64,000 bases of DNA from Pempheris klunzingeri (Eukaryota > Chordata > Actinopteri > Acropomatiformes > Pempheridae). Shown piece by piece: positions 3,101 through 55,504 of this stretch (positions are counted from its first letter, which is position 1; every line of letters starts with the position of its first letter). The position numbers were made by a program, and so were the translations under genes. The notes under the pieces were generated by a model. That model had not been told where the DNA came from and searched no databases. It worked only from the letters and a program-made list of their open reading frames with translations. The stretch is taken from assembly GCF_042242105.1 (NCBI RefSeq), contig NC_092012.1:16436543-16500542 (forward strand). Reading direction: 5' to 3'.

Positions 3101-4318
3101 TGTAATCATACCGACACTGTTTCGAAGTGACGCATTCTGTAGTGAAGAAGTAATGAACATGTGTTCGCTATCTGTCACAAGCATGTTGAACAAAGCAGTC
3201 TGAGGTAAAGCAGGATTGAGGTAAAGCTCATAATTAACAGGACTGCATTATTCACAAGTCATGAGACAAGAGACACACACAGGGTCTTTGTGCTCTGGGA
3301 CCTGAAATAATAACTGTTATATATATTACCTTAATATTTTCCCCACCTTTCATCTAACAGGAAGAGATGGAGAAGAAAATCAGACAGAGGCTGATGATGC
3401 AGCGGACCTGCCAGGAGCAAATGGCTTTCAAAGAGATGAGGAGGCAGGCAGAGAAAGAGGAAGAGGAGGCCTTCAGGAAAATGATGATGGCTAAGTTTGC
3501 AGAGGACGATCGGATAGAGCAGATGAATGCCCAGAAGAGACGCATGAAGCAACTTGAGCACAAACGCGAGGTGGAGAAGCTGATAGAGGACAGAAGGCGG
3601 CAGCATGAGGCTGACATGGTACAAACCAGACTCTCTGTGTGCATAGTTACATCCAGGATATGGTGGTGCTGGTGTAGTTTACTGGAAGGCAACAGGTAGC
3701 AGCAACTAAGTTTTAGCTCACTGATTTTTGATATTAAGCACTTAGTAATAAATAAATAGAATAAATAGAGATTTAGTATTTAGTACTTAAGTCTTAAAAA
3801 ATGTATATAAGAATGAATATAAGTATCTGACCTTCAAAAGAATAGTTGTAGCTTGGGTGAGTAATAAAGAAGTAAGAGATTTATTTGAGGAACATAAGTG
3901 AAAATGTACAAAACGTGCAGCTCTAGAGTCTCATCTTTGGTTGTAAAGTCAGTTTTCATAATAACATTTATGTTTCCCTTCAAGGAACTGGAGGCGAAAG
4001 AAAGGGCGCTTGAGCAGGAGAGGGAGGCGCTGCGCAGGCAGATAGTTGAAGAAGAGAGGCAGCGACTTCTTAAACGCCACGCAACAAAACTCCTTGGATA
4101 CCTTCCAAAGGTATGAGCCAGCACATGAATTGTCAACAATTTTACACCAGTTCATAATCTTCTACAGATCAAACCATGTGTGTGACCACGAGTGTATCCA
4201 TTCACAGGGCTTGCTCCGTGAAGATGACCTGGTGCACTTTGATGAAGACTTCAGAAAAAACTTTAAAACACGTCAGGCAGATATTTTCTCTGAAGATGGC
4301 TGGGATAGCGATGAGTAA
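126..4318 (+). CDS. mns1: MNS1, meiosis-specific nuclear structural protein 1 (coiled-coil axonemal protein)
   Basis: Ten coding exons: 126-128, 261-470, 1045-1172, 1316-1418, 1772-2001, 2294-2510, 2607-2714, 3361-3618, 3985-4110 and 4208-4318. All phases close to give 497 aa; from memory the human protein is about 495 aa. Almost the whole chain is a charged alpha-helix or coiled coil rich in E, R, K, Q and M, with no membrane segment or signal peptide. The C-terminus is acidic (GWDSDE) after a KLLGYLPKG block. Family knowledge: MNS1 lies inside axonemal doublet microtubules and is needed for motile cilia, sperm flagella and left-right patterning. The start is the ATG at 126, followed directly by a GT donor; splicing to 261 reads M-SRHWTYNQQQR. 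A later in-frame Met in exon 2 is the alternative. The exon 6 donor is weak (GTTGAC). TEX9 lies tail-to-tail 283 bp downstream. Identity rests on the protein pattern, the length and synteny with TEX9 and RFX7. Confidence 0.9.
2818..3075. repeat. Degenerate interspersed repeat in MNS1 intron 7 (hAT-like, tentative)
   Basis: The stretch opens with TTAGGGCTGCAA. It then holds diluted motifs of a common fish repeat: a 'tttggtctata' block, 'ccaaaaccccaaaa', and an end with 'aatcagctgatggtta'. A similar decayed copy sits at 34300-34545 in NEDD4 intron 2's downstream neighbour, intron 5. The assignment to a hAT-like family is from memory of motif style and is uncertain. Confidence 0.4.
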
Positions 4319-10914: not shown

Positions 10915-13900
10915 ATGGCCGAGGAGGACCCCCAGCAGCCAGCGGAGCGCGGGGTGAGGAGCCAGGCCGGCCTGCTCCCCGGGCTGCAGGGCGCCGAGGC
11001 CAGCGCTCTGCAGCTCAGGATCAAGAACTCCATCTGGTGAGGAGGTGTCCACACACTGCCGGGGCATGTGCTTGATGCTTGAAGGGAGAAGCAACATTTA
11101 CACTGAGCCTTCTCACCCAGAGGTAGAAGTAGTGCTCACATGCTTTACTGCAGTAAAAGGAGCAACAACACCATGTCAGAGTACTTCATCACTGTTAGAG
11201 AAGTCCTGCATGCAAAATGTAGCAGTATAAGCAGTAGTGATAGAGCAGAAAACTGTCTCCTTATTTTACTGGAATACTGATTTAATAATATGTAATTAGT
11301 ATACTGTTATAGATTCTACAAGTGGAGCCAGTTTTACCTGTGTGCTGTTGGACAGTTTAATTATATTTTATACACTGATCACATGTTTAATAAGTGAAAA
11401 GTTAATCTGCGCACAACACGTGCCAGTAAAATGAATGCGATGGAGTAAAAAGAGCAATATTTTCTGCTGGAATGCAGCAAAGTGTCATTTAATGGAAGTG
11501 TTAAGTCAAATAAGCACACAGTACTGGAGTAGTTGTACTTAGTCACATTCCAGAGTAGCTATAGATATGTATTTACATGTAGTTTCAAAGGAGTTGCAGA
11601 GCATCAGCAGTTCATTTGGTAAAGTGTTCAGGTGGTTTGTGGTCTGTTCGTTCAGACTGAGGAGTGACAGACTCTGAGGGCAGGTACAGTCCAGTCTGCC
11701 CATACGTTGTAGCTCATATCCGCCTGTTCCAGGACTGTTGGGCCGATTGTTAATGCAGACAGACTAAACTATAAAGATCGTCTTGGGATCTAAATCTGTT
11801 GATCAGGTCTCAGGGTGCCTTTATGTCAGATGTTCAGGGTCAGATGTTGGCATGGACAGTGTTAGTGGTGGAATTTAACTAGTGCATTTACTCAGGTACA
11901 GTACAATTTTGTGGTACTGTTCTGCAGATGAAGATTTTACCCACAAAACATACGGTCAAATAATAAAATATGATGATGCATTGCTGTACAGTAAACTACT
12001 TAACAGTATATTGTATGTCGTAGTTGAAAATGCTGCTTACGCATGAATGCACCAGTAATTATAACCTCATATTACAGTACAATGTCTTCTTGCATAGTTC
12101 AGTGTACTTTTACTCAAGGGAAAACTTGAGTAATAATAGAGTATAGCTCCTTAAACGTAGTAAGTCTCATCTCTTTGTAGTTGTTGTAGCCATCTACATT
12201 CAAGTTCCCTATTAAAACGCTTGCGAAACCAGCAGCTGCAGTATTTAGTTCCTCACTTGACATAACTCAGTTTCACATTATGTACCAAGTAGAGCAAACC
12301 TCGAAAGAAATGCTGTGCTTTACGTTTACAAGACAAATGTAATGTCATGTAATCACCACGATGTGTGTTTGAAAACTGCTCACACATACCAGATATTATC
12401 CAAATGATCCAAGTGACTTTCACAACAGTTTATAGAAGAAAGCTCACTGACTTCAGACATGTTTACCTGGTTTTAGGCTACTTTTTCTACTATTTCCCGA
12501 TTGATAAATTGATTCTATTGTTTGTCTATAAAATGTTTTAAAAAAAAAGTTTTGTCCAATAGAAAAACACAAAGATATACTATATATAACTAAGTGAGTC
12601 TCTGAGAGGCAGTCAGGCCTGAAATCTCAGGAGCTGTAATTTCTGTGTATAAAATAATATTTTCAGCATTATTTGAACTGCTTTAACATAAATATACTAG
12701 ACTGAATCATTACCAGTTTGAAATAAGGACCTGTGGCTGTTCACATAATAAAATCTGAATCAAATGCAAAAGTTTATTGTACTTAAACAAGATAAATGCA
12801 AGGATTTGAAGTAGTGTATTAGTTTTCAGATATGAGAAAAAGACCTAATTTCTTTAACAACTGCTACTGTATATTGTCTGAAGGTCATGTTCTGACCAAA
12901 AATACCCTTTTTTTCTCTGAGTGAGAGTTAACTCAATTCTTGTCGTGGAAATATCAAGCAGCCATAAAATGTCAAAAGGCTGAACCAGCAGAAAGCACAA
13001 GAGTTCAGAGTTGAAATGTCTGCAGGAAAAACCTGAACAGCAGCCGGTCACTGTGCTAGTGCCAGTTTGCCATTAACACGCTGGGATTTTGAATATTTGT
13101 CCTGCTCCCTAAATCTTTAACCTTTAAAGAAGATTAGAGCATAAATATTGACGTTCACCTCAGCAACCTGCTTCTGAGTGGCTCATTGGAGGCTGAGGCC
13201 GTCTGCGTCGGGGTCAGCAAGTTCAAGCGTCAACGTACGGAGCGGAGCGGGGGTCTGTTGTGAAGCGCTGCTGTGGAGGGAGCTGCTCCTGCTGGTTTTA
13301 CACCTGGATTTTAGACCCAGCGTAATTTAAACGATGTCTTGCATCAGTTCTTTGTTACGTTTTCTAATCTAAGTCTTAAATAAATGGCCTCAGGTGTCGT
13401 TCGGTGTACCTGCCAAATCTGCCTTACAAACAGCTTAACGGCGGCCTTTCAGCACCGGGACAATCCTTGCCCCTAGTAACAGTGAATTAAAGGGAACTGT
13501 TCTTGTCATGGCTTAGCAGAGTGTCCCCTGTTTCTGTCCTGCCCAGTGTTGCCGAGTAAGAGTCTTTAAATGAGACCTTCTGTCTCGCGATCGACAACAA
13601 CATGACCCGTCTGTAGATGAGGAATTAGACCTGGAAAATCTATTCATGCGTCTGGTTTGATGGGCAATGCTTCAGTGGTTTAAATCAGTGTAGAGGTTTA
13701 AGATGAGTGTCTTCTTGTAGTTTATTTAGTTAATTTAGTCAATTAAAATAGTGATTGGCACCTTTTGTCTAAACTTATGTATGTACAATATGGATGTCAA
13801 TGGCCTCCTTTTATTAGTATACAATAAGCAAGAGCATATGGATAATATCAGTAATCACAATAAAACATTTGGGAACACTCTAGGATTTTTTACTTCTCTT

Positions 13901-16900
13901 AAATTATGACAAACCCATGAATAAAGGGTGAATGCCCACATTTTTATCAAATTCTACCATCAACATTAGCTTCAACTGGGATGAAAGAGTTGGATAGTAG
14001 ATTTCCTCAGTGACGGCACATGAATGTCTGTGCTCTGAATGATAAAAAAGCTCCTGTCTGTCAGAGACAATGTTACCACAGTGCCTGTCTGTCTCTCTCT
14101 CTCTCTTTTTACATATGACAACATGTGTTCCCGCTGGTGGGATACATGACCTGAGAGATGCTGAAGGGAGGGTCGTCTCATACCAAACATTCCTCGGCTT
14201 TATAAATAAATACACTTTAGACACACGTGCTCATGTTACACCAGCTTCATACTAATTTATACTATGTCTCTGTTTTGCAGCAAATCCGTTCAATCAAAAG
14301 TGGAAAACATTCTGGTGAGTATTCTTGACGTGTTTTTAACCCATAAACTGCAACTTTAATGAAAGCATTTTTATTGAACCCTGCGTCATCTGTTGAAATA
14401 TCGTTTGTGATTCATTCGCGTTTCTCGCATGCAGAGCTAAAGCACTGTTGCTTCCTGATGGGTTTATTTCCTTTCTGGAATATTTTTTTAAAAATGACCG
14501 CAAATCTGTCTTTTTAGCGTCACTTTTTAGATCAGCCTATAGAGGGCGCAGCTGAGGCCCGACAACTGTAGCGAGCCGGTGACGTCTCTAGTTAGGACTC
14601 AACAAGGACGGCTATTACTATTTGTTCTATGATTTTATAAATCATGAATGTTTAAGATTTGTAAAACTCTCCCCGAGCCTTGAAAAGCCGGAAAAGAAAA
14701 AGGAGCGTTGAATGTCGGCTGTGTGGGATGAACGGCTGAGTTCAGACACAGAGATACTGATGTGCAGTGGGCTGCATTGAGCCTCTATGAAAAGAGACAA
14801 CAACGGATTAACCTCTGACAGCAGCCTCATGAGTGGGTCAAATATGGTCTCAGCAGACCAGCGTCTCCTCTATGAATGGATTATAAATCAGTATATTGCA
14901 TCCCCTGAAGGTCAGAGGGAAACATTGTCATTAAAATTTCTAAATAAATTCATTATCGAATCAGCTCTGAACGGTATGTACAGTCTAGAGGTGCTTCAGC
15001 GTATCTTAAACTATGTTTATTACATCCAACAATAGGAAAATGGGATGTTATAAAATACTAATGCTATTCCTTCAGTCTAAGCAGTAATTGGTGAGAAGGT
15101 TAAAGTATGTGTTGTTGGGAGTGATGCTAATAGAAAGGCCACGGGACTGTTTTAGGCACACGTGCCAAATGCCAAATTAGGCACACGTGTCTATCCCCGT
15201 TGGAAAAGGGCAAATTTCATGTTGGCCTGACGGTGGCGCTAGAGGAAGGAAGGCGCTAGAAGAGTGTCAAAAACAGGAAAAGCTCTTTGCGAATCCACAG
15301 ATTATGTTCTCGATTTGTCGTTTGGTCCTTGAAACACCAAAAAGTAGTAAAAACCAACTCTCCAAGTTAAATGCTTCTTTTATCCAACCAACAATTCCAA
15401 ATGAAAAAAATGTTCATTATCAAAGATGATAGAAAAGAAGGAGCAAATCCTCACATTGTAGAAGCTGAACCCAGCAAATATTTGTCTGTTGCTGGAAAGT
15501 AAAATAGTAAATCATTTTCTTTTGATTGACTAATCATTCACTAAAAAGAATCTACTGTGCTCCGTGGATTGCATGGCAGTCTGCCCATTACATTTTGATA
15601 TTTCTTTTTGTGTACTTGTTGAAGGACATCAAAACCATTAACATTTCTGTGGGGAGGATGAATGTCTGCTGGCTGTAGACATCTTACAGTATGCTTAGTG
15701 TGTCCATGGTTCATACACACATTGTGACGCAGGCTGTGTTGACTCTAATTTTGTGATTTTGTGTGATGCTCTGCTCTGTTTCATCACCTGCTATATAAAG
15801 AAGAAGTCCAGCGTTACTGAGAGCCAGCTGATGTTGCACTGTTTGCTAAATTGGTGTCTAGTATTGTACTTGCACATGCTATAACGATGATATAACAGTA
15901 GTTTGTTTAGAGCAATGTGCAGCTTTTTGGAGAGTGTGACAGTCACTGTTAAAGCCTCATGGGTGCTGTAGTCTACGTGTTGAATAGTAGAGTAAAAGAA
16001 TACATGTTTATCAGGACGTTCAGTTGTAGATACCATCTAACTTAGCAGAATACCAGGTCATGTGTCACCTTTTAATAAAATGCAATGCAGAAAATTCATT
16101 GTAAAGCCGAGGCTGGTTGTCCCTATGTAATATTCTATATATAATGTGTGTTGTCATGTAGTTGTTAATACAGACCGGGTCATCTCATCCCTGACCATGC
16201 CTAAAATCACTTTGCACCCTATGTTGCCTGACCTCATCTATCACCACCGTGTGGGCACCAGTTTGCTTCTGTTTTGATAATCCTAAAGTAGTCAACTGAG
16301 AAGAGCTTAATAAAAAGCATTGCATTGAATTGATGATATGTTTAGTCTCCACTGGGTCTTCCTTGGCAACCTCACAGCGATGACGAGACTCCAAGAAGTC
16401 ACTTAACCGACCGAGAAATAGTCCCCTGCATCACCCGTCAGAAAACCACAACTTGATTTTTACACATGATCTAACTTTATAATAGTTTATTCTGTTTATC
16501 CGACCACAGAAACATAAAAATGTATGAATAAGATTAACCGTAGTGTAAATTCTGATCCATTAAAACACAGTTTAAGTGATCGCAGAGACCAGGAAGAGGG
16601 GAATGAACAAAGGTTCAGGCCTCGAATACTGAGGGAGCACCTGAGCTACAATAATTTACCAAATTTAAGCCACTGCATCTTGGGTCAGGAAGTTTATATT
16701 TAATAGTGCACATAGCTGCACAAAATAAGTCAAAATGTCTGCACATTAACTATCAAACACTGAAATCATAAATGTTTGCATGTTGGTAGCATCTCTGTTT
16801 CCAGGTAAAGTGAGTTAAAGGGTGAGAGGAGTTGATGACACAGTAACACACAGACATCGACAGTCCAAGTCAGCAGAGCAGGACGTGAGTCCCAACAGCG

Positions 16901-19900
16901 TCCTCTGAGCGATACACAGCAAGCAGCCCACAGACAAAACAAGCTGCTCACTGTTATTTCCTAGTTTAGATGATTATGATGATTATATGGATGTGCCTGT
17001 ATTCCTCACGGCTGATGCTGCTCAGTGTCTGTGACCTTCAGCGTGAGGTGTGTTTTCCTGACAACAAATAAGTTAATCAGAAAAGATGGACAGAATGACA
17101 TTTATTCTTAGGAGCCAGTTCAAAAGGGTGAATATGTCTGTATGTTGGCAGTGTGTGGGTTTGTGTCTGTACACTGTTCTGGGAGCAGACGGTTTGAGTT
17201 CACCTTACAAGCTCCCCTCCCCGTTTGTCTCTGTGTGTCTGTCTGCAGCCTGTCTTCAACCCTCTGCACTGTCTTGTTAAAACTGTGTTCATGCTCCTCA
17301 CTCCTAGCCCCAGTGCTTCACTGTGGGGACGGAGTTTAGTCTGATGGCCAGAATCAGACTGTAGAAGCCTCTTCCAGGTGACTTCAGAGACTTTTCACTG
17401 TCTCCCTGTTGAAGGTTTTGCAACAATACTGACACAAAGAAAGTCACACCTTCAAATTCGGGTGTATTTATGCTACAGTCAAACAAAACCCCTTCGCTGC
17501 ACACACTCGGTTTAACTAATTATGTGACTGCTAAAACAAGTTGCTTTAGCTTTTTAGATTTGTAATTTGAATCAGTTTAAGATCTGTTTTCATTTTGATA
17601 TAAAGAGACTTAAATATCCTTGAATTCTCCTTAAATCTCCCTTAAATCTTTGTTGTATAACAATAAAACACTAGAGAGCTTCTTGCTACCAGTTGGATAT
17701 CAGGTCACTGTGTTTGGTGCAGTAGGACACATGACATGAGCGAAGTAAGTTTGACAAAACAGATGAACTGTGCCAAATTTATTCAATGTCCCTGCATGTT
17801 CAGCGTTTACCCTATGTTGTATTGGCATATATATGTGCTTTACTGAAATATTTTCTCGTTTGATCGGCTTTCCCTTCCCCCTGCACTATATGTCTATCTG
17901 CCCCAGGGGCGTTTATAGGATTTTAGGACATTGGGGGCTTAGGCCGGACCTCTGTAACTCTATTTTGATGCACTCTGGCACTGATTGATTGAAACTGGGA
18001 TTGAAACTTAGAGTATAAAACAATTGTGGGCCAGGGGTGTAAAGTGGGGGGGCCACTAAAGTCTCATGACTGCATTTTGCACGGTTGTGATGCTATCACA
18101 AGACAGACTTATAAATGCCTGACAAAGTACTCAAAACGCTTCTGTGGTAGTTCCTGCTACGTTAGGTGTTTGTAAAAACGTGCTTAGATGAAATGAGGGA
18201 TAATTTTGTTCCACCTCTGAGACAGCAGTTGAGTTGAGACGGGACTCCACTAGACGCAGGCGCTGTTGTGTTAAACATCGCGTATCTTTTGCTCCCGGAA
18301 AGCCGGTATGCTGTCTAATGCCACACACGGGGTCAGCAATTTGCTGCCATTGTTTGGTTTTGGTGTAAAAAAGCAAAGCGTGGTTGCTGCGTATGAATGA
18401 ATGAGAGTGAGAAGTGAACATGCAAACACCATAATATGCAGGTGTTACTGAGTTTATACTGTATGTGGTATGTTCAATGTACTTATAGGTGCTGTTGGTT
18501 GTAAAAGTAATTCATGGCCAGAATATCATGTGTGCATCGACGGTTTAACAATTTGTTTGAGTGCGTATTTAAATTAATTATTTGCATTTTATTAACATAC
18601 TTTTCTGTTGCTTCAACAGTAAGTAAGTTGTGTTGGACAAGTCTGTTTGTTTATTACTACTGTCACATCAGGCCAGGATAGTTTATCCTGGATAGTTTTG
18701 TAGATTTTAGAGATAAACCAAATTTTGACTTGATGATGACACCAGAGGAAAAGTCAGGGATCATCAGGAAGTTATCACCGTTCATCCTGAGGAGGATATG
18801 AATATATGTATACAATTTCTTGGCAATCCATCCAATAGTGGTCAACATATTTCACCCAGATCCACTAATGTCAACCTCACGGTGGCGCTACAGGTCTCTG
18901 GGGTTCATCCTCTGGGAACCGCAAATATATGTACAAAATTTCTTGGCAATCCATCAAATAATGGTTGAAATATTTCAGTATGGACCACAGCGGTGGACTG
19001 ACAGCCACACAGATAAAAACACGAACCTGCAGGATGTGTACAAACTGCCTCTGCTGTGGAAACCTCTTTGTGCTGATAAAAAGGAAAGCCAAATGTTAAA
19101 ACTCCGTTTTTTTCTGTCCCCGTTCTGTTTCTACAGCAAGATGTCGAGAAGTTCTCAGACATCGAAAAACTCTACCTCTACCTTAAGTTGCCTTCCGGTC
19201 CCAGCAGCAGCACTGATAAAAGGTGAGGAATAAGGACGTAATATAGACATTTATAGAAAAATGGACAAATAATGAAATATTTATGAAAGAGGGAGCCCCT
19301 GAAATGATTAATCGTTGATAGAAACACACATTTCACTTCACTGTTGTCTTAAATGTTTGCTATGTTTAATTTCACTATTACACAAAGCTTACATTAGCCT
19401 TTGTCAGGATGATTTCTCAGGACTGAGGTGACAGTGACCTGAGTGTTGTGGCTTTTGCTTTGCCCCTCGTTACTCAATCAATGATCCACATCTTTCTCTC
19501 AGTGACCAGAGCGCCCTGTCGTCAAGCCGCACTCAGCAGATGCATGCGTTCAGCTGGATCCGTAATCATTTAGAGGAATACCCAGAGACATCTCTTCCCA
19601 AACAGGAGGTCTATGACGAATACAAGTAGGTATAAACAGACTGAATAGATAAGATAAATATAGAAGAATAAAGGTTTTTTTCACTGCTACAAACCAATTT
19701 CAAGTGGAGACTTAATTGTTACTGTCATAGGTTCTCACTAAAAACATAAACATATACACCACACAGAGAATAAATCAGATATTTTTTCCATTAATTAACT
19801 CTAGACTTCACTATCTGAATGTGTATCATTGATGTTCGCCGTTTGAATAGATAACAGCTACTAATGTTTGAGATTCTTTCTCCTCTAAGTTGCTGCAGGC

Positions 19901-22900
19901 TGAAGCGTCAGTATAAATAGACGCAGCAGGCATGAGAATCACAGAGAGCAGCATGTGTTGGTAATATTAGAATGGAAAGTCTGAGACAGCCATTGAAATG
20001 CTCTGACAGTGTTATGTAAGTGTCTTTTTAACTCTACCAGATCAGAAATACAGTGCCCCCCAGAAATATTGGCGCCTTCAGGATGGACAGGTGAAAAGGC
20101 TTTAAAGAGACTTAATGTCTCACTTCAAAACAGCAAAAACATGTCGTCTATGAAACAATCATGCTTGTTACAGTCGTTCACTTTATTGTAACAGATGCTA
20201 AAGCCTCTCGTGGGGACTATTTCATTTAAATGTTTCGTATGTTTAACAAATTGTTTAAATAAAGAGCCATACTTCAGTCAGTTGCACACAAGAACTAATT
20301 CACCGAGACAAATGTCATCAGGACTTCAGTTAAGCTGCAATGAATCGATTATAATGACAGTTTATCAGAGGTTTGTGTAAACAGACGATGATGGAACCAA
20401 AAAATACAGCTGTGGGCTGTAAAACCGAAACAATGAGCTGAAAGGTGCTAAAAGTGATTTTATCCATTGTTGATATACGCTAAAAAGATTTATTACAGCA
20501 GCTTTAATTGTTCCAATCAACAATGTCACACCATGACAATATGTTCTTTAAAGTTAGTTAAATTTTAGAGTAGAACAGAACAGTTTTCACTTTAAAAACT
20601 TTTATCATGGGATTCAAACAGTAATGGCTCAGAAAATAATCTGCTGTGTCGATTTGGTTTTGACTCATGGCTCACGTCGTGACATGTCCTGTGGTTTGGT
20701 TTAAAACTAAATGGGATTGTTTTGCTATTTCTTTCTTCTTAATTACATTTCTTCTGTTTTTCAGGAGTTTCTGTGACAATCTGAACTACCACCCGCTGAG
20801 TGCTGCAGACTTTGGAAAAATGATGAAAAATGTCTTCCCCAACATGAAGGCACGTCGACTTGGCATGAGAGGAAAATCTAAATATCCTTTACTGGAATGG
20901 ATTGTAACAGTCTGGCCTCTGTCTCTGGTCACAGACCATCTGCTGTTGCAGTTCATAAGCTCTCTAAATATAGATGTGAAATGAAATAAAGTCCCCCCTC
21001 TGCTTCGGAAGCAGGAGCATAATACAGAGGCCCTCAGGGGCAGTCACTGTGATCTTGACCTTCATGACGCAATTGTGATTTTTATTTCTTTTTTTTGTGC
21101 AAATCCTGGTTTATATTCATGACCTTCAGTGTTTTGGGTTCATGAAATTATCTCTGTAGAAGGTGTGATAGTATTTGCTTAATTCTGTCAGTTCTATCAT
21201 GATGTGGGAAAACTTATTTTCCTTGTTTGCCTGTTGAAGAGAGTCTGCTTTGAACTCATGTTAGCAACATCTCCAGCACTAATTAGAAATAATCTGTAAA
21301 ATATATCAAATGAAACACATGTAAAATATCAAATAGTTTTAAATCAAAGTAGTTTAACTCCAGCAGACTAGTTGAATTAGCCTGAACACTTGAAAATCAC
21401 ACCATCGTGAGAAATTATTTACAATTTATAGACTTAGTTGCCTCTCTATTCTCACTAGATTCCATACAAATAGATAAAAAGTTTACGTATCGCTTCGCCT
21501 CGTCTGTAATTTGAGACATATTGCAGCTACAGGTGGCTGCAAGTTCTTTAATTCAATAAAGTAATTCTTAGTTTCTCACATTTGAAACAGCACCTGGTAG
21601 TATATTGGGTAAGATTTTGTTTGTTTTACTTGGGATAAGAAATGTTGGGCGCAGACTGCCACAGTGTGCCTGACTGGAGGTGCCTCACAGGGTTCACCCT
21701 CTGTCACTCACACACAGTTGAAAACGTTTGATAAAAAGACATTAACACAAAGCTGCAATTTACTGAGAAGCTTGAGAAGGTGTTTGCTGCTGTTATTCAT
21801 AGAGGCCAGTGTCAGTTTACACTTTTCACTATGAGACTGGTCCTGTCGCAATGTTTTTAATTATTCTCACAGTAACTTCTTCTTCTTCTTCTTTTGCAAA
21901 AAGCTAATTAATAACTTAATTTATAATAAAAACACAGTTAGGGTGTGACACAATGGGGTACGATAGTTGTACAGTATCAGAAGCTGGACCGTTAAACTCA
22001 GAGTCAGATTTTCTAATATTAATTTTTTAACATGGAAAATTGAACTGATGAGCTTTACATGAACGCTATCTATACTTTCCAGTATATCACCATGGTTATT
22101 TTCTTGAATCATGTTTTTGATCTTAACACTGGCTTACATATTGCTATAGCGGACTGAGGAAGAGGCCCTGTGTTCACATGCCATCTTTACCCACTCTGGA
22201 CGTCCATAAAACAGGGGATGGAGTAAGCACGCTTACATCTTCCTTAGAAGTCTCCAATCTCTTTGTATTCCGATTTTTGTCACTATCCTGTCTGTCATAT
22301 GTATATTTATTGTCACGTATCTATTGTGTGTAGCTCCAGTGCGATGTCCTAGAATCAGCGGGCCAGCTGAGCAGCATAAAGGAGGACGTGCGATTTGCAG
22401 CCTGCGATCTGGTGTGTGAGTGGGCCCAAAAGGTGCTAAAACGCCAGTTTGATGCCGTGGAAGACTTGGCTCGCTTCCTGATTGACAGCCATTACATCAG
22501 CAACAAGTCTTTGGCAGCTTTCACCATTACAACCGGCACAGCAACAGGTAAGAGAGTTTAATCAGCCTTCTGTAAAAACAGAGGCAACAGTGGCATCTGG
22601 TGGCAGCTGCCTGTTACTGCTCTTGTGTCTGTGCCATGATCAAATCTTACTGTAACTCAAGCTTAAACATTCACAGATTTATATATCAAGATGTTGAGGT
22701 TACTTTTTACTATTGACAGAAGCCTGATATCTAAATCCTTGTTTTCTTTCATTAGAGGTGAATACTCCACAGGCGGTCTCAGCGTTCGTCCCCACTGCCG
22801 AGGCTCACTCCCTTCAGCCTCACGTGACAAACCTGTCCTCGCCCTCTGTCGATGCGAAGCAGCAGCTCCAGAGGAAGATCCAGAGGAGACAGCAGGAACA

Positions 22901-25900
22901 GAAGCTGCACTCTCCTTTACCTGGAGAAGGACAAACCAAGAGGGCGAACGACGGTGTGCCTTGTGCTAGCCCCAACCCTCCGTCACCTCAGGCAACCTTA
23001 GGCATCGTGGTCGCTGCTGTCCCGAGCCCCATCACGGTGAGAAGGCAGGACTTTCAGTGTAGATTACACTGTTGGGGGTCATTTTTTCCTATCTGCTGTG
23101 TTCACCTCACCTAAGAGAAACATTTAGATTCACCTAAATTCACCCCTATTTTGTTGATGGTTACATCCTGATAGCGCCAGTTTACAGTCTGACCGTTGTT
23201 TCCAAGATTACACTCTTTCTGATGATCACTTATTTCATATTAACTTATTATTAACATAAAACAAGCAATTAGAGTGGTTCAAATTGTGCTTAAAAACACA
23301 CCTCTTATTTTCAATTTAATAACTCTAAATGTATAATTACAATAAGAATTAATAAACTAATAAATAAACATTAATATTAATAAACAGAATCAGTTAATGA
23401 TTTGTGTTACTTCAATGTCTGTAAACATTTCGAGGTGAAGGTGAATATTCAGATCAGATAATGACATATTTGGCTGTAGTTCTCTTTAGAAAAGCTTACA
23501 AAGATAATGTAGCATTCAACAAAATGTAAACTAAGCTGAAATATGCAAACCATCTGTTTTCACGTATTTAGACAGTTAACACAGTTCTATGTAAATACAT
23601 TTTTTTATAACTGAATCTGCTGAAAATTCTTCTGTTTCTCGAACATAGACTGTATTTGGCTGCAGTTCAACACTGACATAGTGCACTTTATCAACACAAA
23701 TATTATATCCACAATAATATCTCACTGTCATCCATCTATGTTTTCTTTGGACTTTGATGCAGTTCATATTTCATTTCTATTTTTTCCTTTTTTTTGGGAT
23801 TATCATCTAGAACTCAGTCGTTCCACTTTCTGATTGACCTTCCCTCTCTGCAGGTACAGAGAAGTAGGCAGCTGATGTCTCCCAGTCCAGTGGGAACAGT
23901 GGAGAACAAATTGCTGCCTATTAACTTCCAGATGGTGACCCAGCCAGTTCAGGCAGTGAAACAGAGCCCCAAAACCCCGCAAAATATTCTAGCCAGTCCC
24001 GTGGGAGAACGCACTGTCCGGCAGCGCTATGCACAAATCCTGCCCAAGCCTACGGCCACGACCGCTATCACGTTACGCTCGCCCTCCACCATGATCATCG
24101 GCAACAGCCCCATTAAGACTATGATGACTACATGTCATGTTAGCCCGGTCAGTTTGGTCAAGATGACAGCCATATCACTTGCACCCAACAGCAGCAACAC
24201 CACCACTTCCGTCACAAACACCACTCTGCGGCCGGCATCTGCAGGCATTAGCAGTTCTGCAGAAGACATCTGCTCCAATGAAAGCATGAAGAGCCCCTCT
24301 GCAGTCCCCCTTCTGGCCCCGGTGGCCAGGCCAGGGCAGGCTTCTAACAATCACACCATCGATGTTGAAATGGAAGTTGAAGCTATACATAAAAACAGCC
24401 AAATGCAAAGTCCTAGTAGTCTAATTTTGCATCAGGAAGCAATGGCAAATAGGGCTGGAGGGGCTATGCAGAGGGCTGCCAGTGTGCCCATTCCTCAGAC
24501 CAGAGGTTTCCTGGGTCTGGAGGAAACATCCAGCACTAATTGCAACGGAAAGTCCTCCTCAAGCAGCAATAATAGCGCTAATTATGCAAGCACTTTGCAC
24601 TTAACACCCTCCAATGAAAATACCAGCACTCTTTCCTTTCTGAACACCAGCAGAGCACCTTCATTTGGGGAAAGCAGCCTTGTAACATCAGCAAAGGAAG
24701 ATTTCTTGTCCACTAAGAGCGTCAGGAAACGGTCAGGCCTCAGTCCAGACCTTTCTCCAGTCAAAAGGATTTTTATGTCCCAGCAGCAGCCAGAGGGCGC
24801 TGCTGGTCTTGGATATGGGATTAGAAACACAGTCAGTAACGTCCCCAGGCTAGGAGCTCCAGCTAGATCTGAAAGTGCACCAGCGACCAGGGAGGTAGAG
24901 ACGAAAATGAACTCCGTCTCATCCACTCAAGTCCACGCATTCGGCACTTCCTCTTTCAGAGCCAGTGGCTTCTGCTCTGTTGCCAAAACACAGAGCTCAA
25001 TGCAGAGGAAAAACACTTCCTCTGTTATGGAAACTAGCACCTCAGCCAGTCACGCATTAATGCAGCAACAGCAGGGGCACACAATTGCTAACATGCATAC
25101 CATACCTAATAACCCCGACCTCCAAAAACATTCATGTGTGAGGGATGTTAGGAGTTCAAACTCAAACACAGGAGGCCTGGAGGGAGCTCAACAACAGACC
25201 TACTCTCAGTCCAACCCTGTCACTGAACCCTTAGACTTTTTCAGTCAAGCTTCATCGTCAAACCAGCCCTCTGTGCACACAGAAATGGACTACTTTCCCT
25301 TTGATGACGATGTGACTCAGGACAGCATTGTGGAGGAGCTGGTGCAGATGGAAGAGCAGATGAAATTTAACAACTTGCAGGAGTTTGGAAACTGTGTCAC
25401 AGTGCAAGGCCAACAGGCCGTGATGCCGGACAACATAATGTCCTCCAATCAGGGCATGGCTGCTTTCTATAATGCTGCCAACAGCCACAGCAACCCGATC
25501 CAAACTCCAACACCGACACCCACCCCCACACCCACATCAGAAATGATGGGAGGGGCCCAAGGCCTCACCGGAGAGAGCCCCTTCTCCCGCATCGCCTCCA
25601 CAACCCCAGTGGATAGCGCGCTGGGAAGCAGTCGTCACACCCCAGTTGGCACTCCACACTCCAACTGCAGCAGCACGGTGCCTCCCAGTCCAGTGGAGTG
25701 CAGGAACCCGTTTGCATTTACGCCCATCAACTCTAGCATCACTGGTTTCCATGACGGCAGCACCGTCTCCAGCAGCCCAGTCAAGCCTATGCAGAGGCCG
25801 ATGGCCACCCACCCAGACAAAACCAGGTTGGAGTGGATGAATAACAGTTACAACAGCAGCAGTGGGAGCTTAAACAAGTCAAACAGTGAAATGGGAATCC

Positions 25901-27078
25901 TCCACAGCTACCAAGGCCTGATAGGTGACCATTTTCAAAAACCTCACGCCTTCGCTGTCCCTCACGTACGGCACCACGACAGCCATTTTGGCCGCTTGAC
26001 TCCCATCTCGCCTGTGCAGCAGCAGGTAGCTAGCATGGCTAACACGACCAAGCAGGAAGGTTTTGCTGTGCCTGCCCCTCTGGATAACAAAGCCACGAAC
26101 ACACCTGCCACGACTTTCCGATGTCGCAGCGTAAGCCCCGCGGTGCACCAGAGGAACTTGAGTGGGAACACAGGAAACCTTCCCCATGTCCCTCGTTCAA
26201 TATCGTCTCCCTTTAACTCTCCTGTGACGCCTGAGGTGTTAAACATCTTCGCAAACAGCCAGACGAATCTTGGGGTGAGCAGCATGGCTCAGAGGAGCCA
26301 CTCTGTGCCGCTCAGCATCATGATGCAAACTGAGGTCGTACCCACACCGGGCCAACAATGCAACAGCAAAAACATCACCAGTGTTCTGCTCAGCAAGCTG
26401 GATGGGGACCATGATGACGCTACGCGGGGTCTGGGTATCAATAATTTACCCTCCAGCTACACTGCGCGCATGAACCTCACACAGATCCTCGAGTCCAACG
26501 CCAACCTCTCCCGCGGTGACAACCACCTCGGCCAGATGACCTCTGAGTCCACCAGCGCATGCAAGTTGCAGAGGCCAGATTACCTCATGGAAAATGCTAT
26601 GAACGAACAAGTGATCTTTGCAGCAGGTGGCAGCCGCGCACAGTCGGCCTCTGGAGAACAGCGTCGACAACAGGCCCAGTCTATGCTGTTGACTTTGAGC
26701 TCGCAACAGCCTCAAGAACTACAACAGCGTCAGCAGTTGGATTTCAGCAGCACCGTGAAAGACCTCCTGACAGACAACAGCCTTACCGCTGGCAACCAGC
26801 TCATGGAGCAGGTGTCAGAGCTAACTACAGGCACCGCAGATTTCCCCTGTGAAATCAGAATGACGTCAGAGCTCTCCAGTAGCATCAATGACCTTAACGC
26901 ACTGGACACAAACCTTCTGTTTGACCCCAACCAGCAGCATGGGCAATATCAAAACGCTGCTGCGGAGGACTTGGTGAATGATCCGCTGTTTCAGCAAATT
27001 ACCAGCGAGACGACACATTCAGGTGGACTCGACTGGCTAGAAAGCAAAGATCATCCGACTGTTGGGTTGATGGGGTGA
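10915..27078 (+). CDS. rfx7: RFX7, regulatory factor X7 (winged-helix transcription factor)
   Basis: Nine coding exons: 10915-11036, 14281-14314, 19137-19222, 19503-19625, 20765-20881, 22138-22222, 22334-22547, 22756-23036 and 23854-27078. They give 1428 aa. The RFX DNA-binding domain spans about residues 95-170 ([35 protein letters not shown]). Directly after it, PSLPTL (176-181) is a PxLPxL motif, which in this family binds the ankyrin repeats of RFXANK/ANKRA2. The 1074-aa last exon is largely disordered and rich in S, T, N and Q. It keeps conserved islands: [20 protein letters not shown], a (PT)n run, [43 protein letters not shown] and DHPTVGLMG at the end. RFX7 acts in the nucleus on X-box sites. 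Intron 5 is a U12-type AT-AC intron. NEDD4 follows on the same strand, as in human. Confidence 0.95.
11108..11570 (+). repeat. Second copy of the 'AGTACTTTTACT' family repeat, RFX7 intron 1
   Basis: It opens with 'agaggtagaagtagtgctcac', carries 'cagtaaaaggagcaac' and 'gtcctgcatgcaaaatg', and ends in 'gtagttgtacttagtcacattcca'. It has the same order of blocks as the copy upstream of RFX7 but different decay. Confidence 0.55.
11865..12130 (-). repeat. Third copy (reverse orientation) of the same repeat family, RFX7 intron 1
   Basis: It begins TTAGTGGTGGAATTTAACTA and continues 'gcatttactcaggtacagta', the reverse-complement end of the family. Its 'gtggtggaa' edge looks like a terminal inverted repeat. 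Confidence 0.5.
12131..14280. other. Rest of RFX7 intron 1
   Basis: I see no supported exon. A CpG-richer patch at about 13140-13290 and a TC run at about 14092-14107 stand out. A weak hAT-like relic lies near 12480-12600 ('tctataaaatgttt'). Confidence 0.5.
14315..18730. other. First part of RFX7 intron 2 (no gene)
   Basis: It holds an unrecognised 82-codon ORF at 14787-15035 and a fragment of the '..acggtggcgctagagga..' repeat near 15220-15250. A stretch at about 17900-18065 starting 'ccccaggggcg' resembles the edge of a DNA transposon. No splice-supported exon is visible. Confidence 0.45.
18735..19012 (+). repeat. Two tandem diverged copies of a teleost interspersed repeat, RFX7 intron 2
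   Basis: Both copies carry 'ttcttggcaatccatc.aata.tgg' (about 18818 and 18940), preceded by 'gttcatcctg/tctg' and a 'tatatgta.a.aattt' block. Between them sits 'acctcacggtggcgctac'. The array ends 125 bp before RFX7 exon 3. Confidence 0.65.
20040..20105. mobile_element. Possible Tc1/mariner terminal-repeat relic
   Basis: 'tacagtgccccccagaaat' followed by 'attggcgcc' resembles the ends of fish Tc1-like elements. No matching reverse end or transposase was found, so this is at most a solo fragment in RFX7 intron 4. Confidence 0.3.
20882..22137 (+). other. rfx7: U12-type AT-AC intron (RFX7 intron 5)
   Basis: The intron begins ATATCCTTT, the U12 AT-AC donor consensus, and ends GGCTTAC. A branch-site-like TCTTAAC (22121-22127) lies about 11 nt before the acceptor. 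Joining 20881 to 22138 restores [13 protein letters not shown] of the RFX domain exactly. No GT-AG choice at this junction restores those residues. Confidence 0.9.

Positions 27079-31495: not shown

Positions 31496-55504
<24,009 letters not shown>

Follow-up and report, generated by a model that had tools for sequence, protein, structure and literature searches.

Introns of the U12 type that begin with AT and end with AC are an established kind, catalogued in U12DB, MIDB, and IAOD and characterized by their donor, their branch site and its distance from the acceptor, and their termini. The initial annotation of the locus treated here described such introns as rare. This holds overall, but among U12-type introns those with AT-AC termini make up 22% in zebrafish and 26% in human, and the type as a whole is biased against phase 0 (PMC7367187). 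Minor introns in transcription factors are also on record: Prospero/PROX1 has a minor AT-AC intron, which in the fly lies at the homeodomain and, having a major intron nested within it, forms a twintron (PMC2831892, PMC6865273), and minor introns occur in most members of the E2F family (PMC6865273). Introns converted from the U12 to the U2 type, in which position and phase are kept and the spliceosome class differs, were described by Burge et al. (via PMC2831892).

A 64,000-nt stretch of the Pempheris klunzingeri genome (contig NC_092012.1, positions 16,436,543 to 16,500,542; hereafter “the window”) was analysed, and intron 5 of its rfx7 gene is a further case of this kind. No literature linking RFX7 or RFX5 to minor or U12-type introns was found, and the minor-splicing papers examined do not contain “rfx” in their main text. 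Among papers that mention both RFX and the minor spliceosome, the matches in one were to RfxCas13d, and the others concern CRISPR-Cas by title. Because lists of U12-type introns sit in supplements, this absence is a weak sign of novelty.

The rfx7 gene and the signals of its intron 5

The coding sequence of rfx7 was placed on the forward strand at 10915-27078, in nine exons that encode 1428 amino acids with no internal stops. Coding exons 1 to 3 lie at 10915-11036 (the start codon is assumed), 14281-14314, and 19137-19222. The N-terminal part of the RFX domain is encoded by exon 4 (19503-19625); exon 5 (20765-20881) continues the domain as far as SK, and exon 6 (22138-22222) begins with YCYSGLRK. 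Exons 7 (22334-22547) and 8 (22756-23036) are followed by a long last exon (23854-27078) that carries the stop codon.

When the first 424 residues of the protein were searched, Pfam RFX5_N (PF18326) scored 112.9 bits and RFX_DNA_binding (PF02257), at residues 94-170, scored 102.6 bits. The PDB matches of the same residues were to RFX5 (8zjr, 150 bits; 2kw3) and RFX1 (1dp7). The Pfam dimerisation domain was found neither in these 424 residues nor in the last-exon frame; RFX5 and RFX7 are described as being without the B, C, and D domains (PMC2533330). In a tree of RFX domains, the two rfx7 copies of this genome pair with a support of 0.999, apart from the RFX5 of 8zjr and the rfx5 gene of this genome (L007); the tree is small, was built without a named RFX7 sequence, and orders the RFX5/7 clade internally with a support of 0.181. 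The window gene is probably of the RFX7 type, its protein being taken to resemble RFX7; in human, RFX7 is flanked by MNS1 and NEDD4.

Other features of the window were recorded as well. Upstream of rfx7, an MNS1 exon was observed as a coiled-coil open frame (3358-3630) matching MNS1 structures. Downstream, WW-like motifs occur at 48047, 49753, 50204, and 51196, one of them a Pfam WW domain, and the region 48047-51200 is probably a NEDD4-type gene. An open frame of 456 codons (39390-40760, forward strand) has no Pfam match and may be an exon of a neighbouring gene. An ATTAT tandem repeat occupies 45721-45838 (23.6 copies, 98% matches). Nothing in the window reached the Rfam gathering score, and no relatives were found in viral and bacterial sequence collections, as expected for an animal gene.

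Intron 5 (20882-22137, forward strand) is 1256 nt long and interrupts the Lys161 codon in phase 2: exon 5 ends with GGA AAA TCT AA at 20881, and exon 6 resumes with A TAT TGC TAT AGC GGA at 22138. The intron reads ATATCCTTT...TTAC, its termini being AT and AC. The 5' splice site (20882-20890) agrees with the U12-type motif RTATCCTTT at 9/9 positions, and this 9-mer has one exact copy on the forward strand of the window and none on the reverse strand. The branch site TCTTAAC (22121-22127) matches CCTTRAC at 6/7 positions, and its second A lies 11 nt ahead of the final base of the intron; judged by the longer motif TTCCTTRACY, it is no better than TTTCTTGAAT, which lies farther upstream, ca. 30 nt from the intron end. 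A long pyrimidine tract is absent before the 3' splice site AC (22136-22137). The class, the signals, and the exact coordinates given in the initial annotation were thus recovered. Its placement of the intron inside the DNA-binding domain of an RFX7-type gene agrees with the Pfam, PDB, and splice-pair scores.

ATAT follows both splice sites, and shifting the boundaries by 1-4 nt leaves the mRNA identical. Among these equivalent boundaries, only 20882-22137 has both AT-AC ends and a complete donor motif. The ATAT at both sites was considered as a mark of insertion, a reading that was rejected because the repeat is explained by the donor consensus together with the codons for SKY.

AT-AC termini do not by themselves exclude the major spliceosome, as U2-type AT-AC introns are known, among them some sodium channel introns (PMC2831892). 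The sodium channel introns, however, have G at +5 (PMC2831892), whereas the rfx7 intron has C. Moreover, the rfx7 donor, with its full U12-type match, agrees with the U2 donor consensus at only 4/9 positions, while the other seven rfx7 introns, all GT-AG, score 6-8/9 against the U2 donor and 2-4/9 against the U12 donor. Processing of intron 5 by the major spliceosome was judged very improbable.

The junction was compared with other splicing choices using 81 in-frame, stop-free pairs (GT/GC-AG, AT-AC, or AT-AG termini; donors starting at 20781-21000 and last intron bases at or before 22190). In alignments to the RFX5 of 8zjr, the 20882/22137 pair scored 159, the highest of the 81, and the best GT-AG pair scored 114. 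The claim that only the AT-AC choice restores the residues of the domain held among the best 12 of the 81 pairs, and is narrowed to that set. With exons 5 and 6 joined at 20881/22138, Pfam RFX_DNA_binding scored 71 bits; the intron-retained form scored 56.1 bits. An ordinary GT-AG (U2-type) intron in which the AT-AC signals were fortuitous would have a usable pair at 20921/22149, which is in frame and stop-free, and motif pairs of the AT-AC kind do arise by chance in the window. Use of 20921/22149, the best GT-AG form, would nevertheless replace the CYS of KYCYSG with unrelated residues and lower the Pfam score to 55.9 bits, and the AT-AC signals recur at the same codon in two paralogues (see below). 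An ordinary intron was accordingly assigned a negligible probability. A YCYSG pattern search of the locus that covers the intron (L006), in the three forward frames, returned exon 6 and one unrelated match before the intron. An extra exon within the intron that supplied these residues, one of the outcomes that the initial annotation had named as fatal to its proposal, was not found in this search, and none is needed.

Chance expectations for the motifs were obtained from 200,000 random sequences with the base composition of the intron and the junction fixed by homology. With thresholds that were chosen after the site had been seen, a donor of at least 8/9 appeared in 0.00057 of the sequences and an AC or AG with a branch site of at least 6/7 in 0.0015; both signals appeared together in 0 of 200,000 trials (ca. 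0.2 expected from the product). The probability of a 9/9 donor alone was 2.2e-5. In the window itself, 53 of the 3756 forward-strand AC dinucleotides have a branch site of at least 6/7 at 9-14 nt, and a scan of both strands yielded 98 donor/acceptor pairs with a donor of at least 8/9 and 8 with a donor of 9/9, the rfx7 pair included. A second U12-like donor, an exact GTATCCTTT, occurs at 41021; no recognisable exon was found there, and the site was taken as background, so a donor motif alone can arise by chance. Because motif pairs are common without homology, the weight of the assignment is carried by the protein homology and the paralogues, and a chance-motif reading of intron 5 is rejected on the frame, the domain score, and the paralogues.

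The same codon in other RFX genes

An RFX-domain search of the same genome (646 Mb) returned 11 exon matches, corresponding to nine RFX genes and one ARID2-like gene. Two matches (L009 and L011) belong to one gene, and L010, which we take to be ARID2-like from an ARID2 match, was excluded from the RFX counts. The labels rfx4, rfx6, and RFX1-3-like are likewise presumptive. At L017, an ARID2-like gene was observed whose RFX-like domain is interrupted by an intron. The total of nine RFX genes equals the figure given for sequenced fish genomes (PMC2873420).

All three RFX5/7-group genes found (the window rfx7, a second rfx7, and rfx5) share an AT-AC intron that splits one and the same Lys codon at an identical nucleotide, in phase 2, and has an identical 9/9 donor. 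In the second rfx7 (L005), the intron is 677 nt long, with the branch site CCTTAAC (7/7) at 11 nt; the exon layout of this gene matches that of the window gene where it was read, and GT follows exons 1-4, 6, and 8. The intron of rfx5 (minus strand) is 422 nt long, with CCTTAAC (7/7) at 15 nt. The interiors of the three introns are unalignable (best pairwise blastn E of 0.54), and no convincing conserved intronic elements were found among them at blastn E <= 1; the splice signals are therefore what was kept between the paralogues.

A GT-AG intron occupies the same nucleotide and phase in both RFX4/6-type genes, which the RFX-domain tree pairs with a support of 0.918. The rfx6 intron (L016) is 162 nt long, its donor GTACACAC scores 4/9 against the U12 motif, and no branch site above 5/7 was found in it; the rfx4 intron (L012 and L013) is 595 nt long and has the donor GTAAGT. 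In the four RFX1-3-like genes (L001-L004), a GT-AG intron lies 12 nt upstream, in an Arg codon and in phase 2. One of their donors (GTTACCTTT, in L002) reaches 7/9 against the U12 motif, with no branch site of at least 5/7. The comparison of paralogues that the initial annotation had proposed, carried out within this genome, thus showed the AT-AC intron to be common to both rfx7-type genes and rfx5 and absent from the RFX1-3-like genes (n = 4).

Age of the intron and the class difference between clades

The shared minor-class signals, the shared codon, and the unalignable interiors in three paralogues argue for a real intron, one that most likely already existed when RFX5 and RFX7 split. The segment 20882-22137 is almost certainly a genuine U12-type AT-AC intron, which most likely was present ahead of that duplication and passed down to rfx7. 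The codon shared with RFX4/6 suggests an intron that is older still and whose class differs between the clades.

A single position that is minor-class in RFX5/7 and major-class in RFX4/6 is a candidate for a class switch, in either direction. Change from U12 to U2 has been argued to be the likelier direction, with AT-AC introns underrepresented in the converted set (5 of the 79 clusters in one subtype; PMC2831892); taken together, these points make a GT-AG minor form a possible intermediate in the history of the RFX4/6 intron. Alternatively, the RFX5/7 intron may have arisen otherwise. The GT-AG intron of RFX4/6 and the AT-AC intron of RFX5/7 could also be independent insertions at one site. 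Such insertions would fit the unalignable interiors and the presence of the RFX1-3-like intron just 12 nt away, and the shared position was compared among paralogues of one genome. The nucleotide and phase are, however, identical in five of the nine RFX genes of the genome, and the protein alignment is ungapped there; independent insertion was considered less likely than not.

A bolder account of both clades is an ancestral intron in the Lys codon of the RFX wing that predated the split of RFX4/6 and RFX5/7 and was fixed as an AT-AC minor intron in RFX5/7 and as a GT-AG major intron in RFX4/6, a deep class switch between paralogues that would leave the RFX5/7 wing under obligatory control of the minor spliceosome and, because of the AT-AC termini, of CENATAC. 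This account in its entirety is tentative, and its probability was put a little below even. If a single intron is involved, its position would be very old, given that the three RFX groups predate the split of choanoflagellates and animals (PMC2873420). RFX4/6 and RFX5/7, with major and minor introns at the same codon, form a natural pair for studying spliceosome change.

Recognition, retention, and comparison with known introns

At least one U12 snRNA gene is present in the genome (L018, C17:10656207-10656360, 128.7 bits), 44 of 38,965 candidates having been scored. Judged from sequence, intron 5 would be removed by the minor spliceosome, on which the protein would depend. The donor would be recognized by U11 and then by U6atac, and the TCTTAAC branch site by U12; the minor spliceosome would then join the halves of the RFX domain between K and YCYSG. 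With the first A of AAC left out as the branch point, GTAAGGA of U12 can pair with 7/7 bases of the rfx5 branch site, 6/7 of that of the second rfx7, and 6/7 of that of the window rfx7 (one G-U). The window site differs from CCTTAAC at one base, which is the G-U pair with U12, and the preceding base, 22120, is mismatched. Either A of AAC can serve as the branch point (PMC3584512).

On retention of intron 5, the first in-frame stop would be met at 20982-20984 (forward strand). Counted from the junction codon, read-through before the stop amounts to 34 residues in the window rfx7, 42 in the second rfx7, and 6 in rfx5, CYSG being missing from each product. Reading into the intron at this codon also meets a stop in rfx4 and rfx6, and a premature stop is therefore not special to the minor intron. 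Were splicing to fail, CYSG and everything downstream would be lost, and decay of the retained RNA would be expected because three exon junctions follow. The splicing itself, these effects of retention with the decay of unspliced RNA, and any regulatory role of the intron are inferences.

The junction lies after helix 3, presumably in the wing of the RFX domain. RFX1 reads the major groove with its wing (PMC4333399, PMC2533330). In zrsr2-mutant zebrafish, retained U12 introns are shorter than unretained ones (median 451 vs. 1398 nt; PMC9501576); by length, rfx5 (422 nt) would be expected to be more sensitive and the window rfx7 (1256 nt) less so.

A single old intron in the DNA-reading part of the protein would tie RFX5 and RFX7 to minor splicing. 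RFX5 acts in MHC class II expression. Upon loss of CENATAC, 92% of A-type minor introns are affected, vs. 24% of G-type (PMC8280824). Because A-type introns are the most CENATAC-sensitive, RFX5 and RFX7 would be concrete candidates for study in disorders of the minor spliceosome, provided that the human genes have this intron too.

Compared with the U12-type AT-AC introns in the catalogues, the rfx7 intron has the same donor, branch site and branch-site distance, and termini, and does not differ in kind; its phase, 2, accords with the bias of the type. As in other genes with U12-type introns, it is one minor intron among major ones. It resembles the Prospero/PROX1 intron in being a minor AT-AC intron of a transcription factor, but the rfx7 frame needs no nested intron. 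As in E2F, the minor intron recurs within a family of transcription factors; RFX is another family, however, and differs in that the intron at this codon belongs to the major class in a related clade. In this last respect it is like the conversions of Burge et al., from which it differs in that the two classes are found in paralogue clades of one genome and the change could have run in either direction.
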